Assembly: GCA_026874595.1 (NCBI GenBank)
Contig: CM049312.1
Coordinates: 75,565,429 to 75,629,428 of the forward strand
DNA from: Sipunculus nudus
Taxonomy: Eukaryota > Annelida > Sipuncula > Golfingiida > Sipunculidae
Reading direction: 5' to 3'
Length of the DNA stretch: 64,000 nt
Each line of letters begins with the position of its first letter. Positions within the stretch are counted from its first letter, which is position 1. This document shows, piece by piece, positions 802 through 33,900 of the stretch. The notes under the pieces were generated by a model. It made no database searches. It was not told where the DNA came from and saw only the letters and a program-made list of their open reading frames with translations. The position numbers and the translations under genes were made by a program.

Positions 802-960
802 CTGCTTTGGAGGCCTGCCTCTCGGTCTTTTTGGGGACTGTACTTTCAGCGGTTTAACATCCTCTTCGTCTTCTGACTCCTCCTCTATCATAATTCGGCT
901 TTTCTTTGGGCTGCTGTATCTCTTACTGCTTGACACTGGGCGTTTGACAGAGGGACGCGA
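802..960 (-). CDS. MORC2: MORC2 exon 21, basic tail ending in an AT-hook
   Basis: 159 nt, phase 0 at both ends: [62 protein letters not shown] is a canonical AT-hook (R-G-R-P core), a minor-groove DNA binder. An AT-hook at this place is not a feature I know from vertebrate MORC2. Acceptor TTTCAG, donor GTAGGT. Its last 36 nt are the prototype of the array at 1-801. Confidence 0.85.
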
Positions 961-3900: not shown

Positions 3901-6900
3901 AAAGTTTATACTGGAAAACTTTAGACTTTGTATCCATACATATTTTAAAAGGAAGCATATAAATTTCTTCACAGCTGGAACATATTATCCTACTTTAGGC
4001 AAAAACGGCCCTTCATATAATGTTAATTTTTGAAAACAAGAGTAAATACTTCTGTTTTTTTTTTAAATATGTCATAATTGCAGCAGAAACTTGTATGTGA
4101 CCTAATCCATGAAGGTGTGAACACACACATTTCTAGAGTACATTCCATGAGCTTACCTGTATCTTTTCTAGTTTTTCTTGTTTCTTCTTTATTTCCTGTA
4201 ATATAAAAAGAGAAACTAGAAGTTAACAAACAGTTCTTCCTTGTATTTTTTGCACAAACTAATCTCTTGTTATAATAACAACAGACAAATCGAATCTTTA
4301 CTTTTCTGCACAGTTCTAAAATCAAGGATTTTTGTTCTCTTTTTGCTGAATTTAAAGCGTTAAAGAACTGATGACCATTTTTAGGAGGAACAATTTTATT
4401 AGGTAAGTTTCCTGGCTACATCATGTGACTGTAAACTGAGGGTAGATGCTTTCAATCATATGATTTGAAACCACACTTTCCCATTTATTGGCTCAATACT
4501 AAGTTACACAATGCTCACTCCACTGCTGGAACTGCTTTGGTGAATTTTACAATACTGTCTGCTCCATAATTCCATTATCAGAATACACAGCAACACTATA
4601 CAAGCATATAAAAATAATAAAGTAAATACCTTTTTACTCAAGTACAGACCCCTTGTACTTGTATTTTTACTATATAAAACTGGAAATTATTATACTTGTA
4701 CATAGACTTGTAGTTTGCAATTTCTTAAATATAATTATTATAGTAAATTAATTAAAAAGTACTTGTGCTCAAGTACACTGAAAAAAGTACTCTAATTACA
4801 TTTGTACTTGTAAAATTATTTAGTACATGAACTCAAATACAAAAATTTTAGAACCTGCCCAGTAGTTGTAATTAGCATGTTTAGCCAAGTAAAATACTTG
4901 TACTTAAAGTGTACTTGCCACACACGTACTTGACAATTAACACACCCTCTACTTGAATCAAAGCCTGTAGGTTAAGTGGAACACAGAAAAGATGGGCAAA
5001 ACACTGAAGATCCTTACTCACATCCCATCATACATACCATTTCTAGATCTCTTTCTTTTTGTTCTCGTGACTTGATCTCTTTCTTCAGGACACCTTCTGG
5101 TATGTTAAGTTTCTGCTCAGGTGCCGAACATCTGAAAGAAATCCAGTCATTGAAATGATAAATGGATTGGCAAAACATTTGGGAGCAACTGTGCCTCTGA
5201 CCTGTATAATTTAATCAGTTCCTTTTGTATGAATATTGAACAAAGGTTTACTTTCCATGAGGTCTAATTAAGTGGCATACAAACATACTTGCATGGCAAT
5301 GTCTATTTATGCAGCCTAAGATAGTCTCCAACAGAATTATGTGCTTAACAAGACTGTGATAAGATTTTGCAGCCATGTTATAAACAGAAACAGACTATAG
5401 TGAGCCTATTCACCCACACAAACATATATATATTATATAGAGAGATGTATGAATAGCCATGCTGGTTCACTGTATAAAGAAATGGAATAGGAATACACTG
5501 AAAAGTCTGTTCACTGACAACAGTGAACTGACTTTCTGGGTATTCATGTTCAATTTATATAAGATTAAAATACAGTGGAATGTTGACTGAACAGACCTGT
5601 TATGCTCAGGGTCCTTGTTGTGTGAAATGACCTTTTGTAAGCAGGGTCATTGTTGTGTGAACTGACCTGTTATGAGCAGGGTCATTGTTGTGTGAACTGA
5701 CCTGTAATGAGCAGGGTTGTTGTTGTGTGAACTGACCTGTTATGAGCAGGGTCATTGTTGTGTGAACTGACCTGTTATGAGCAGGGTTGTTGTTGTGTAA
5801 ACTGACCTGTTATGAGCAGGGTCATTGTTGTGTGAACTGACCTGTTATGAGCAGGGTCATTGGTGTGTGAACTGACCTGTTATGAGCAGGGTCATTGGTG
5901 TGTGAACAGACCTGTTATGAGCAGGGTTGTTGTTGTGTGAACTGACCTGTTATGAGCAGGGTCATTGTTGTGTGAACTGACCTGTTATGAGCAGGGTCAT
6001 TGGTGTGTGAACTGACCTGTTATAAACAGGGTTGTTGGTGTGTGAACTGACCTGTTATGAGCAGGGTCATTGTTGTGTGAACTGACCTGTTATGAGCAGG
6101 GTTGTTGTTGTGTGAACTGACCTGTTATGAGCAGGGTCATTGTTGTGTGAACTGACCTGTTATGAGCAGGGTCATTGTTGTGTGAACTGACCTGTTATGA
6201 GCAGGGTCATTGTTGTGTGAACTGACCTGTTATGAGCAGGGTCATTGTTGTGTGAACTGACCTGTTATGAGCAGGGTTGTTGTTGTGTGAACTGATCTGT
6301 TATGAGCAGGGTTGTTGGTGTGTGAACTGACCTGTTATGAGCAGGGTCATTGTTCTGAGAACTGAACTGTTATGAGCAGGGTCATTGTTGTGTGAACTGA
6401 CCTGTTATGAGCAGGGTTGTTGTTGTGTGAACTGACCTGTTATGAGCAGGGTCATTGGTGTGTGAACTGACCTGTTATAAACAGGGTTGTTGGTGTGTGA
6501 ACTGACCTGTTATGAGCAGGGTTATTGGTGTGTGAACTGACCTGTTATGAGCAGGGTTGTTGTTGTGTGAACTGACCTGTTATGAACAGGGTTGTTGGTG
6601 TGTGAACTGACCTGTTATGAGCAGGGTCATTGTTGTGTGAACTGACCTGTTATGAGCAGGGTCCTTGTGGTGTGAACTGACCTGTTATGAGCAGGTTCAT
6701 TGTTCTGTGAACTGACCTGTTATGAGCAGGGTCATTGTTGTGTGAACTGACCTGTTATGAACAGGGTCATTGTTCTGTGAACTGACCTGTTATGAGCAGG
6801 GTTGTTGTTGTGTGAACTGACCTGTTATGAGCAGGGTCATTGTTCTGTGAACTGACCTGTTATGAGCAGGGTCATTGTTCTGAGAACTGACCTGTTATGA

Positions 6901-9888
6901 GCAGGGTCATTGTTGTGTGAACTAGCCTGTTATGAACAGGGTCCTTGTGGTGTGAACTGACCTGTTATGAGCAGGGTTGTTGATGTGTGAACTGATCTGT
7001 TATGAGCAGGGTTGTTGTTGTGTGAACTGACCTGTTATGAGCAGGGTCATTGTTGTGTGAACTGACCTGTTATGAACAGGGTCCTTGTGGTGTGAACTGA
7101 CCTGTTATGAGCAGGGTTGTTGATGTGTGAACTGATCTGTTATGAGCAGGGTCCTTGTGGTGTGAACTGATCTGTTATGAGCAGGGTCATTGTTCTGTGA
7201 ACTGACCTGTTATGAGCAGGGTCATTGTTCTGTGAACTGACCTGTTATGAACAGGGTCATTGTTGTGTGAACTGACCTGTTATGAGCAGGGTCACTGGTG
7301 TGTGAACTGACCTGTTATAAACAGGGTTGTTGGTGTGTGAACTGACCTGTTATAAGCTGGGTCGTTGTTGTGTGAACTGACCTGTTATGAGCAGGGTCAT
7401 TGTTGTGTGAACTGACCTGTTATGAACAGGGTTGTTGGTGTGTGAACTGACCTGTTATAAGCTGGGTCATTGTTGTGTGAACTGACCTGTTATGAGCAGG
7501 GTCATTGTTGTGTGAACTGACCTGTTATGAGCAGGGTCATTGTTGTGTGAACTGACCTGTTATAAACAGGGTTGTTGTTGTGTTAACTGATCTGTTATAA
7601 ACAGGGTCGTTGTTGTGTGAACTGACCTGTTATAAACAGGGTTGTTGGTGTGTGAGCTGACCTGTTATGAGCAGGGTCGTTGTTGTGTGAACTGACCTGT
7701 TATGAGCAGGGTCATTGTTGTGTGAACTGACCTGTTATGAGCAGGGTCGTTGTTGTGTGAACACACCCAATGTTCTGGGTATTCTCTGCCGATGTTGTTT
7801 GCAGAAAAAGGAAGGATCCTCCACTTCAGACATGTATCTGAAAACAAAATAATTATAACAGAGTTGAACAAATCGCACAAAAGGGTACCATTTTTAAAAC
7901 GCTAAAACATGCAGAAATCCTTTAGAATGGTGATGACACCAAATTTGGTTTGTGGTGCACTTGTGCCAACAAACATGTATACAAAGTTATATAAGAATAT
8001 GCCATGGGGAAAATCGTGAAATATTTAAAGGGGCCTATCCCGATATCTGATGTGTATTAACTAAAGATAAACCCTTGATGATCATATGGTACACAGGCTG
8101 TTTGTTTTATTTATATCCATGTATTTATAACATGTGGGGAGCCCACCAAAATAAACCAAACCCATTCAAAAAGGACATTTGTGGTAGCAAGTCAGAGGAA
8201 CCACAGTTCTGCATAGGGCGTTTTTCAACTAGTCACCTTTCAGCTTCCACATATATGCAATCAATCAAGGTTGCAAGGTTTTTCTGTTTGTCAACATAGA
8301 AACATGTGAAGTGTTTACTAACAGCACGCAGATATACAAGGTCATATGTCCATCAAAGAAGTGTTATAAGAAGATTCTTAGCAGGAATTACACTCAGTTC
8401 ATTATTATGTACACAGAGTAGCTAGAAACCACATAAATCTTACAGATAAGCCAGGTGAATAGCTGGCCTTAAACTTGTGAATCTAAAACAGTTACATTGT
8501 GCCTTATTTTCCAGCAGTTACTTCATAATACTTACTACATAAAAACAAGGGACCCATGGGTCACGGCGCTCAGCTGATCCTGATTGGACTATAAATGTAT
8601 CACCATTGTGATACTATATTGAGTAGATAAAGCTTAGAATATCATGGTCATGTTGGGTTTTATAAAGGAATATAATGTAATATGTGAGTAAATGATATAT
8701 GAAATAACCTGACTGATGGATTAATATGGAGTAAAATATAGTGGTTTATTTTTTATTTATTTGGGAGGGGTCGAAAAAACAATTTATTTGAGCAAATATG
8801 AATGCAATGACAGTATGCTAAGCAGTGGTATAATGATGATAAGGCTATTTGTTGAAGGATCTATAGTGTATGGAAAACTGCAAGAGTTCAATTTGACAGA
8901 TAAAAGGTTATGATTAACTATACTGATGAGGGGATTTATGAATTTGTGACTGTATGACATAATATCTTGACAAGATCGGTCTTGACAAGGTGCATTATTT
9001 TGATGCCCCTGACGTCTACATATTACACATTGACATAATTTCTGGCATGTACATAGGTACCTATGGACAAATGGTCAACAGTACTGAACCACCTGGAAGG
9101 TCAAAATCTTAAAAATATGATGAAATGTAGATAATGTTTGAGAGGAAGAGGTAATCTGGGCCATGGTTGGTTTATATGATTGAAGAAAATGTTGCAAATA
9201 ATATTTGAGACCTGACCATGCCTTTCCATTGGTTACCTTTTTGATAAGCTGTTGACAGTTCAACAGTTTACACATTTGTCTGATGAGATCCAATTTATTT
9301 GGTAAACCTTTTTTATCAATTTTATGATATGTATACAGTTGCCATAACGTCCTCATTCCACAGTTGCAATGACTTGATAGGGGGGGGGGGGTGTTGTGTT
9401 ATGATCAGAGTTACTATGCCTCTGTCTCTCTGTAGATATTTTCTTTAATTATTAAATTTTATGCTATAGCCATAGAACTATTGTTCACAGTGCCAAGGAG
9501 CAAAGCCTCAGTGGGATGAAGAAGGGGATGGTGAGAGTTACAACACCCTTGCATATACATACAGGATATTAAATTTAATTCAACAGTGCTTATAAAAAAA
9601 ATTTTATTCATGAACATTAAATATTTAAAACAGAAAGAAAGATGGAGAAACAAAGCAAATAATTTTTTTCCCCATTCTACTGATATTTGCATTTATTCCT
9701 TTTTTTTCATTACATAATTTTAATCCAAGTTTCCAAATGTTACTATAAATTTACAGTATAACATACATGTGATTGTGAATATTTCAGTTGATTCACATTT
9801 CTAAATTGCATCAACATTTATAGCTAATGCATCTAGTTTATAGTACCTGTCAACAGAATGGGATGGAGGGAGCAAGGGAGGCAATTAG

Positions 9889-30900: not shown

Positions 30901-33900
30901 ATTCTCTGGGAACATATTAAAAAAATATATTTAAAGAAATGTTCCATGAATATACAAAAACAGAATGAATTATGGGCACACATGTCCACTAAGCAAAATA
31001 AAATTGTGAAAAATCAGAAACAAGAAATAGTTTCTGATAGCAAATTAATACAATGACGGACAAAAATTTGCGTTGGTTGATTATGTCTGCTGAGGACAAT
31101 GATTTTGTTTACCTATTATATAGGACATACCTTAATTTAAAGTTTCAATTTATATACAGAAGAGCCTCATGATTAAAGACACTGACAAGTTTGAGTCCAG
31201 AGAGGTGGTCATATTAGAAAGGTTATCATCTCCAGGAATATATGTGATGGGGCAACTGCAAGTGTCCATACAGGTGCAAAATAGATAGTTGCCTGTAAGC
31301 AGAGCTTTCCAAGTGCAAACTGAGCATGATCTCATAACATAGAAAGCAATTTGCTTGTATACCAAATATAATCTTTTCTACAGTCTTCACATGGTATGCT
31401 TGAACTAAAAAATAAGTGAAATAAACTATAAATTTAGAACTTAAAAAGCATTGGAATAAAATAACATCTCAATACTGGTTTAGGGCATTTAAGCAAAGCT
31501 GAAACAGTCCTGGTTGTCTCTCTCATCCCTTAAGTTCAAACACCATATTAATGCTCACACACCTGTAGTGGTCAGATAGTTTTGACCATGGTCAAAAAAG
31601 TGAAAATAAATATTGTGACAAAAATTTAGTGGTCAATATTCATGTAAGGCTGATGGTTGCTTGATGTATGTTTAAACTGTACAACTATCTGTTTAAAGTC
31701 CACCGACAGCAGGTGATCATCTAATCAGGGTGGCTCTCACCTTGGCCTTTTAGGACTTTCAATGTTGCAATTTTGACATCAGTGTCTGTGTTAACACAGT
31801 TTAAGAAATATTTGGCAAATCAACCAAAAAAGTTATACCAACTATATAAAACATCCATGAAAATTAATATCTCACTGTAATTTAAAAATCTGTGCAGCCC
31901 TAACAATGCTGATAAAAGATATATATATGTAAAATAAGAACAGAATTGTGTCCAACTAAACTTCAGAATAAAATTCTGAATTTAGCAGTTAGTATGAAAA
32001 TGTAAACTTGTAAGTTTTACCTTTTCATAACAAAAGATAATCATTTTAAAAATTAGGATGAGAGAGACAACAGGACCAATGTTAACATATTCATAATAAC
32101 TGCCTTTTGAGCTACTCCACTGCACATGTTCAGTTAACCATTCACTAGGCCTCAACTGTGTCTCTCTGACAACTAAGCAGTACAGAAGTTAGATATTGCA
32201 AAACAAACTGACTAAGGTCAACTACAAAACTTGCAGAGTAACAGGAATTTGATCATTCACAGTCCATAGTTTCAGACTAAATCAGAAAAAGTCAAAAATT
32301 TGAAAAGTGCTTATAACCAAACCGGCAAGTAAGGAGAGGTAACTTGGCCTCGAATCAACTTTCAATGGGACCTGTGTAACTTGTTGGACTTAAACCATGT
32401 CAGTTGAGAGAGGTTATAATGTAAATAACAGGGCTTGAACCATGTCATTTGAGAGAGGTTACACTGTATAATTGGCTTTAACCACATCATTGTCTGCACA
32501 AGACAGGTGTCAGTTAAGAGAGGTTACAATCTATTGATTGGCCTTTGACCTTGTCAGTTAAGACAGGTTACATTGTATATAACTTGGCTTATACTGTGCT
32601 AGATAAGAGAGGTTGCACTGTATATAAATGGGCTTGAACTGTATCAGTCAAGAGAGATTACACTGTTTGTAACTGGGCTTGAACTGTGTCATTCGTGACA
32701 GGTTACACTGTACATAATTGGGCTTGAACTATGTCAGTTAAGAGAGGTTACACTGTCAATGAATAAGCTTGAACTGTGTCAGTTAAGAGAGATTACACTA
32801 TAAACTATTGGACTTGAATGGTGTCAGTAAAGAAAGGTTACATTGTATATAATTGGCCTTTGACTGTGCTAGATAAGAGAGGTTGCAATGTATACAAATG
32901 GGCTTGAACTGTGTCAGTCAAGAGAGGTTACACTGTTTGTAACTGGGCTTGAACTGTGTCAGTTAGGAAAGGTTACACTGAAAATAACTGGGCTTGAATC
33001 ATGTCAGTTAATTGAGATTACTGTATATAATTGGCCTTCAACTGTGCCAGATAAGGTCGAATACACTGTTTATAACTAGGCCTGAACTGTGTCAGTTAAG
33101 AGAAATTACACTGTTAATAACTGGGCTTGAACTGTGTCAGTTAAAAAAGGTTGCACTGTATATAAATGGGCTTGATGTATGTCAGTCAAGAGAGGTTCCA
33201 CTGTATATAACTAGGCCTGAACTGTGTCAGTTAAGTGAGGTTACATTGTATTTACCTGGGCTTGAATCGTGTCAGTTAAGAGAGGTTACACTGTATATAA
33301 TTTGGCTTGAACCAATGACAGTCAAGTTTTCCAAAAGCTGAACCATGGAGATTATTTTCACATTAAAAATAAAATCATTAATGAGAAACTTATAGGCTTA
33401 GCTGATACAATATGAGGTACATAATGGGAGATGAACATAACATTTCAGAGAAAAACATATACACATTAAACAAACAATGGAATAAAGAAACTATAAAAAT
33501 AAAGTCTTTGCCTTATTTTGATGTGTAAATGTTATTTCTATGTAACAATGTATAAGCATTACCTAGAGAATTGATTAAACATTTCTAGTTAACAGATGAT
33601 ATAAATGTTGGCTGTATTGTTAATGTATCATCCTTGCATTCTGGATTGATGTACACCATTAAAAGTCAGTCACTCACTGATATAAAGGAACATTTTAATC
33701 CGCCCATGCAACACAATCCTTAAAGAATTAGTGATTAATTTGAAATCCCCTTCTGCTGGATATTCCTTAATTAGACAGGATATCAATAACATACTGAAAG
33801 ATTTGAATTGTCCTAAAGGCCTACTTTACCATAAAATTTTCTGATACTTGTACAAAGTAAGGCTGTAACAATACCTCCATGGGCTGATACATTTCAATAA

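Follow-up and report, generated by a model that had tools for sequence, protein, structure and literature searches.

The intron that follows the CW zinc-finger exon of a MORC2 ortholog opens with an unusually long mirage-type minisatellite, a real feature that is new in MORC2 and one of several in this genome, built from tandem copies of the exon's own end and splice donor. We consider it very likely that the array is of the same type as the 'mirages' of lancelets, that its exon-proximal donor wins and that the decoy donors stay silent. The kind itself has already been described; the novelty lies in the scale (up to ~100 copies), in how many genes are affected and perhaps in the host animal. 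With tens of copies of its donor at its start, such an intron offers a natural test of spliceosomal choice among identical 5′ splice sites, and if MORC2 functions despite the 54 decoys, a strict rule of first-donor use or of exon definition would be favoured.

Structure and origin of the MORC2 array

The window analysed here is a stretch of 64,000 nt from Sipunculus nudus, on whose minus strand four exon stretches, colinear with human MORC2, jointly match it with an E value of 1.2e-92. The CW zinc-finger exon (7732–7837, minus strand; human MORC2 match 9.3e-19) ends in CATAACAG|GTCAGT, and the repeat unit derives from its final 30 nt. The next coding exon (5038–5131, minus strand; exon 17 of a preliminary description of this DNA) encodes a 32-residue peptide and carries the acceptor of the array-bearing intron. 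Joined to this exon, read from 5131 to 5038, the CW exon gives a full zf-CW match (5.1e-14), and the donor CAG|GTCAGT at 7726–7734 (minus strand, GT at 7731–7730) is therefore the authentic one; no other donor brings back the CW domain when joined to exon 17. Three more CW exons, paralogous to this one, lie elsewhere in the genome.

The array itself occupies 5592–7731 on the minus strand and comprises 61 repeat units of 35 bp, each made of 5 nt of intron and 30 nt of exon end, with 54 intact decoy GT donors. Tandem Repeats Finder (TRF) places it at 5581–7762 with 62.3 copies, 91% matches and a score of 3510, and the units stay in register with the end of the CW exon down to ~5592. The preliminary description, whose span of 5592–7837 takes in the CW exon itself, had given the unit as 30 nt of exon end plus 5 nt of intron in about 62 copies, most of them keeping the donor sequence; both statements agree with the TRF copy number and with the 62 junctions in register. 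Counting the real junction, GT is kept at 55 of these 62 and AG at all 62, with CAGGTCAGT at 51 and CATAACAGGTCAGT at 43, and the 9-base donor of the real site recurs unchanged in 50 of the 54 decoys. Between the exon copy and the array consensus there is one difference in 30 positions, a synonymous AAC/AAT change, and the 61 repeat units differ from each other by 8.8% on average in pairwise comparison. They fall into 31 distinct unit types with no identical block longer than three units, and no age gradient is detected along the array (Spearman -0.13, p = 0.32). Chance is excluded as its origin, because a 14-mer of the array occurs at 68 places in the genome (1.43 Gb), 43 of them inside this array, as against eight for the backward pattern.

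The copied 10-residue peptide aligns with CSMNPDPEQD of human MORC2; the repeat was therefore derived from the coding sequence. Together with the register of the units, this alignment bears out the earlier proposal that the array arose by tandem copying of the exon end and its donor. The founding event would have been a tandem duplication whose unit spanned the exon–intron boundary, perhaps begun where a short match allowed slippage or unequal exchange, and later growth could have followed by ordinary minisatellite expansion. A possible slippage point is TGTTCA, which by eye is present both where the unit starts within the exon and in the last intronic unit that can be recognised.

A second exon-end array in the window, absent from the preliminary description, begins at an exon that codes for an AT-hook (802–960, minus strand) and ends in CAG|GTAGGT. 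This exon is the source of a 77-bp unit (exon end plus GTAAGT, GTAGGT or GTACGT) that is repeated over 1–846 on the minus strand and runs off the left edge of the window. TRF finds 10.9 copies at 31–846, the first overlapping the end of the AT-hook exon, and in the adjoining sequence (L001) the array continues at 9108–9429, with weaker copies visible by eye to ~8840. Judged only by strand and position, the AT-hook exon probably belongs to the MORC2 gene; homology tests of this exon against MORC2 gave no match. The window also holds a diverged minisatellite of 18 copies of 45 bp (32507–33312), at which no exon edge was seen.

Reading frame and the choice of donor

Splicing from any of the 54 decoy GT donors would introduce a stop codon no farther downstream than the end of exon 17. 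The addition of one unit shifts the frame and meets a stop in exon 17, and the addition of two or three units meets a stop inside the second unit, just as the preliminary description had claimed. A functional gene consequently needs the first donor, and we assume that the animal makes a normal MORC2 product. The exon-proximal donor is most likely still the one used, as it precedes all others in the transcript and lies directly behind the real exon body; in that case the decoys would be ordinary intron, and a message occasionally spliced at one of them would contain a stop codon and presumably undergo nonsense-mediated decay. Such an outcome has a parallel in human reporters with two designed donors: where two tandem donors are equal, the first is reported to be predominantly used, and no such preference is described there for acceptors (PMC6783452). 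Those constructs resemble the MORC2 array in that donors of equal strength lie, and may compete, within one intron, and differ in that the array sets 55 natural donors side by side. This first-come-first-served rule accounts for tolerance of the array and does not define a family of elements. A first-donor rule that keeps the decoys silent is the simplest mechanism, and the two alternatives taken up next are possible mechanisms that lack support.

The preliminary description had suggested either that the gene tolerates a long run of competing donors or that copy number tunes MORC2 output. Tolerance has gained support from the arrays in other genes, the lancelet mirages and the first-donor rule; tuning has found none. 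If decoys took a share of splicing and their stop-bearing products decayed, a longer array would mean less protein, and both the stop codon that follows every decoy and the 9-base donor that nearly all of them share with the real site would fit such a scheme. The GT, however, is no more conserved than other columns (the +1 G is present in 55 of 61 units, and many columns are invariant), and no column-level sign of selection on the decoys appears at GT or AG in the MORC2 array. Similar arrays lie in unrelated genes. In a set of 13 exon-end arrays the unit lengths have no bias towards the reading frame (5 are multiples of three, about the chance expectation), and at 3 of these 13, namely L017, L018 and L020, between one and three additional units would add an open, in-frame peptide. 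As the first of equal tandem donors is also the favoured one, we regard tuning by copy number as improbable.

Just as improbable, in our estimate, is a self-healing form of splicing in which a message spliced at a distal donor loses its leftover units in a second step, as a perfect GT-AG intron, and so becomes normal. Tandem AGGT copies that could supply both ends of such an intron are present in the MORC2 array: AG|GT stands at most unit junctions, AG at every one of them, and once whole units are taken out the exon is exactly as before. The textbook model of intron gain (the Rogers model) likewise starts from duplicated AGGT segments, and in it, as here, each unit starts with GT and ends with AG (PMC4974935). 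The MORC2 segment differs from that model, as it is set out there, in that it takes in an exon–intron junction that was already there, and the exon structure gives no sign of a new intron position. A recursive splice site would combine AG|GT, which is present, with a usable branch point and a polypyrimidine tract. Against a second splicing step, the units show no clear polypyrimidine tract by eye, and the invariance of AG is common to other columns.

An assembly artefact is less probable still. Tandem arrays are prone to misassembly and a single assembly was used, and the exact MORC2 copy number may be wrong in it; yet the variety of unit types without long identical blocks, and the comparable arrays at many other places, argue against an artefact as the source of the array. 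Least probable of all, to the point of being very nearly dismissed, is a coding minisatellite whose retained units lengthen the protein: the open, in-frame units at L017, L018 and L020 would suit it, but the reading frame contradicts it in MORC2, where each of the 54 decoys leads to a stop, and multiples of three are no commoner among unit lengths than chance would give.

Relation to known boundary repeats

The founding paper on mirages reportedly dates from 2002. In lancelets they are described as minisatellite-like tandem duplications of exon–intron boundaries, on either side of the exon, with AG/GT in many of the units; they occur in Adh3, the globin genes BflGb6 and BflGb9 and troponin C, with similar repeats in PGBD5, and they reportedly leave splicing undisturbed (PMC3087553, PMC3902484). 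The MORC2 array shares the anatomy that these accounts give. Its tandem unit straddles an exon–intron boundary, with 30 nt of exon and 5 nt of intron, as does the unit of the second array; an authentic exon copy stands at its edge, as seen from the full zf-CW match and from the register that starts at the exon end; and AG/GT is kept in many units, though not in all. Its 35-bp unit falls within the 10–72 bp reported for units of the lancelet Adh3 mirage. Copy numbers are far apart, with three and six units in the BflGb6 haplotypes as reported and about 62 (MORC2) and about 100 (HADH, below) copies here. The present arrays further differ from the lancelet mirages in that many genes of one genome carry them and in that their host is apparently not a lancelet. 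One of its muscle-myosin exons fits 3i5f, a squid structure, best, about one bit ahead of vertebrate myosin and thus a weak hint towards molluscs; searches for egg lysin and molluscan haemocyanin gave no match, which does not demonstrate that they are absent.

Human genes in segmental duplications also contain internal tandem repeats at exon–intron boundaries, which resemble the MORC2 array in being boundary minisatellites with units of ~30 bp; as described, however, they number about four on average, make alternative introns with transcript support and are often exon-retained (PMC2812944). We recognised no further cases of boundary minisatellites in other animals in the open-licence literature.

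Exon-end arrays elsewhere in the genome

Exon-end arrays certainly recur in this genome. The donor word CAGGTAAGT forms 707 pairs spaced 16–46 bases apart among 15,335 sites genome-wide, compared with 286 pairs among 12,947 sites for its backward word, 62 of whose listed matches came from a single array. Among the matches listed, which cover ~258 of 1,427 Mb, there are 22 distinct loci for CAGGTAAGT and 10 for the backward word. For a second donor word, AAGGTAAGT, there are 358 pairs, and for its reversal 141. We make no general claim of enrichment, because only two or three words were examined.

By eye, 10 of the 22 listed CAGGTAAGT loci show an exon with an acceptor and an open frame that runs into the first unit (L008, L014, L015, L017, L018, L019, L020, L022, L024 and L027). 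A mechanical homology test, in which the open frames upstream of each of the 22 arrays were compared with PDB sequences, gave a homologue at five: GFPT (2e-17), TOMM20 (6e-16), ABCC (2e-9), HADH (2e-6) and XPD (8e-6). Single CAGGTAAGT sites treated alike yielded one match in 40 (CFAP54), the 40 being the unclustered places met first on one contig and not a genome-wide sample; for CAGGTAAGT alone the difference has p = 0.018. Downstream of the 22 arrays there was a single match, to the next exon of the same GFPT gene, which places the GFPT array in the intron between two consecutive exons. Beyond these five confirmed by homology, about eight arrays are exon-like by eye or by weak homology. A 62-bp array (L079) starts at an exon with a tetratricopeptide repeat (TPR) match of 1.1e-5, under that family's cut-off, and has only ~5 nt of its unit in the exon. 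The HADH array (L019, 609–5943) comprises ~100 copies of a 53-bp unit derived from the HADH exon end and donor.

The second donor word gave 12 loci, of which two are exon-like by eye (L107 and L113) and none has PDB homology; the sequences of L115 and L116 stop short of the 5′ edge of their arrays. With both words pooled the comparison becomes 5/34 against 1/40 (p = 0.088), and it is for that reason not established that real donors are especially prone to form arrays. About half of the donor-word arrays have no exon at their edge, and an ad hoc exon score did not cleanly separate the real donors.

Arrays on the acceptor side

An acceptor word, TTTTGCAGG, forms 90 pairs among 45,925 sites, and at 3 of the 11 loci with more than one pair the array ends in an exon. 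One of these exons is that of USP39 by homology (L068, 5e-14); the other two (L070 and L072) are exons by eye only. At the USP39 acceptor, ~8.6 copies of a 35-bp unit (L068, 624–922) form a mirror image of the donor-side arrays. Since acceptor-side arrays end in exons too, both boundaries of an exon can be amplified. Among 20 sampled single TTTTGCAGG sites there was no convincing acceptor (best score 7.4, at L083; L098 offered only 97 bases), and several of the 20 look like copies of one dispersed repeat; for these reasons we claim no rate for donors relative to acceptors. On C1, TTTTGCAGG recurs every ~277 bases (for example at 444768, 445045 and 445322), which indicates a dispersed or tandem repeat of that length.

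Tentatively, and with the odds against it, exon edges might be recurrently amplified in hundreds of introns, mostly on the donor side, with the first-donor rule hiding donor-side copies from selection and leaving acceptor-side copies exposed. If this were true, the genome would offer a natural collection of identical donors in competition, from which splice-site choice could be read. Were such arrays common, gene prediction and short-read splicing calls would often misplace exon ends, and boundary minisatellites would be plausible raw material for new introns.

Three other loci deserve mention. An array of 108 copies of a 44-bp unit on C15 (L002, 659–5455) shares AACAGGTCAGT with the MORC2 unit and contains the 14-mer counted above, the 5′ flank examined there being 46 bases. 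Another consists of nine copies of a 42-bp unit (L073, 636–1016) with 100% matches and is for that reason probably very recent. On C2, four successive matches to about the same stretch (109–153) of a myosin head profile lie at 44849337–44852248 and are perhaps alternative exons of a muscle myosin gene.
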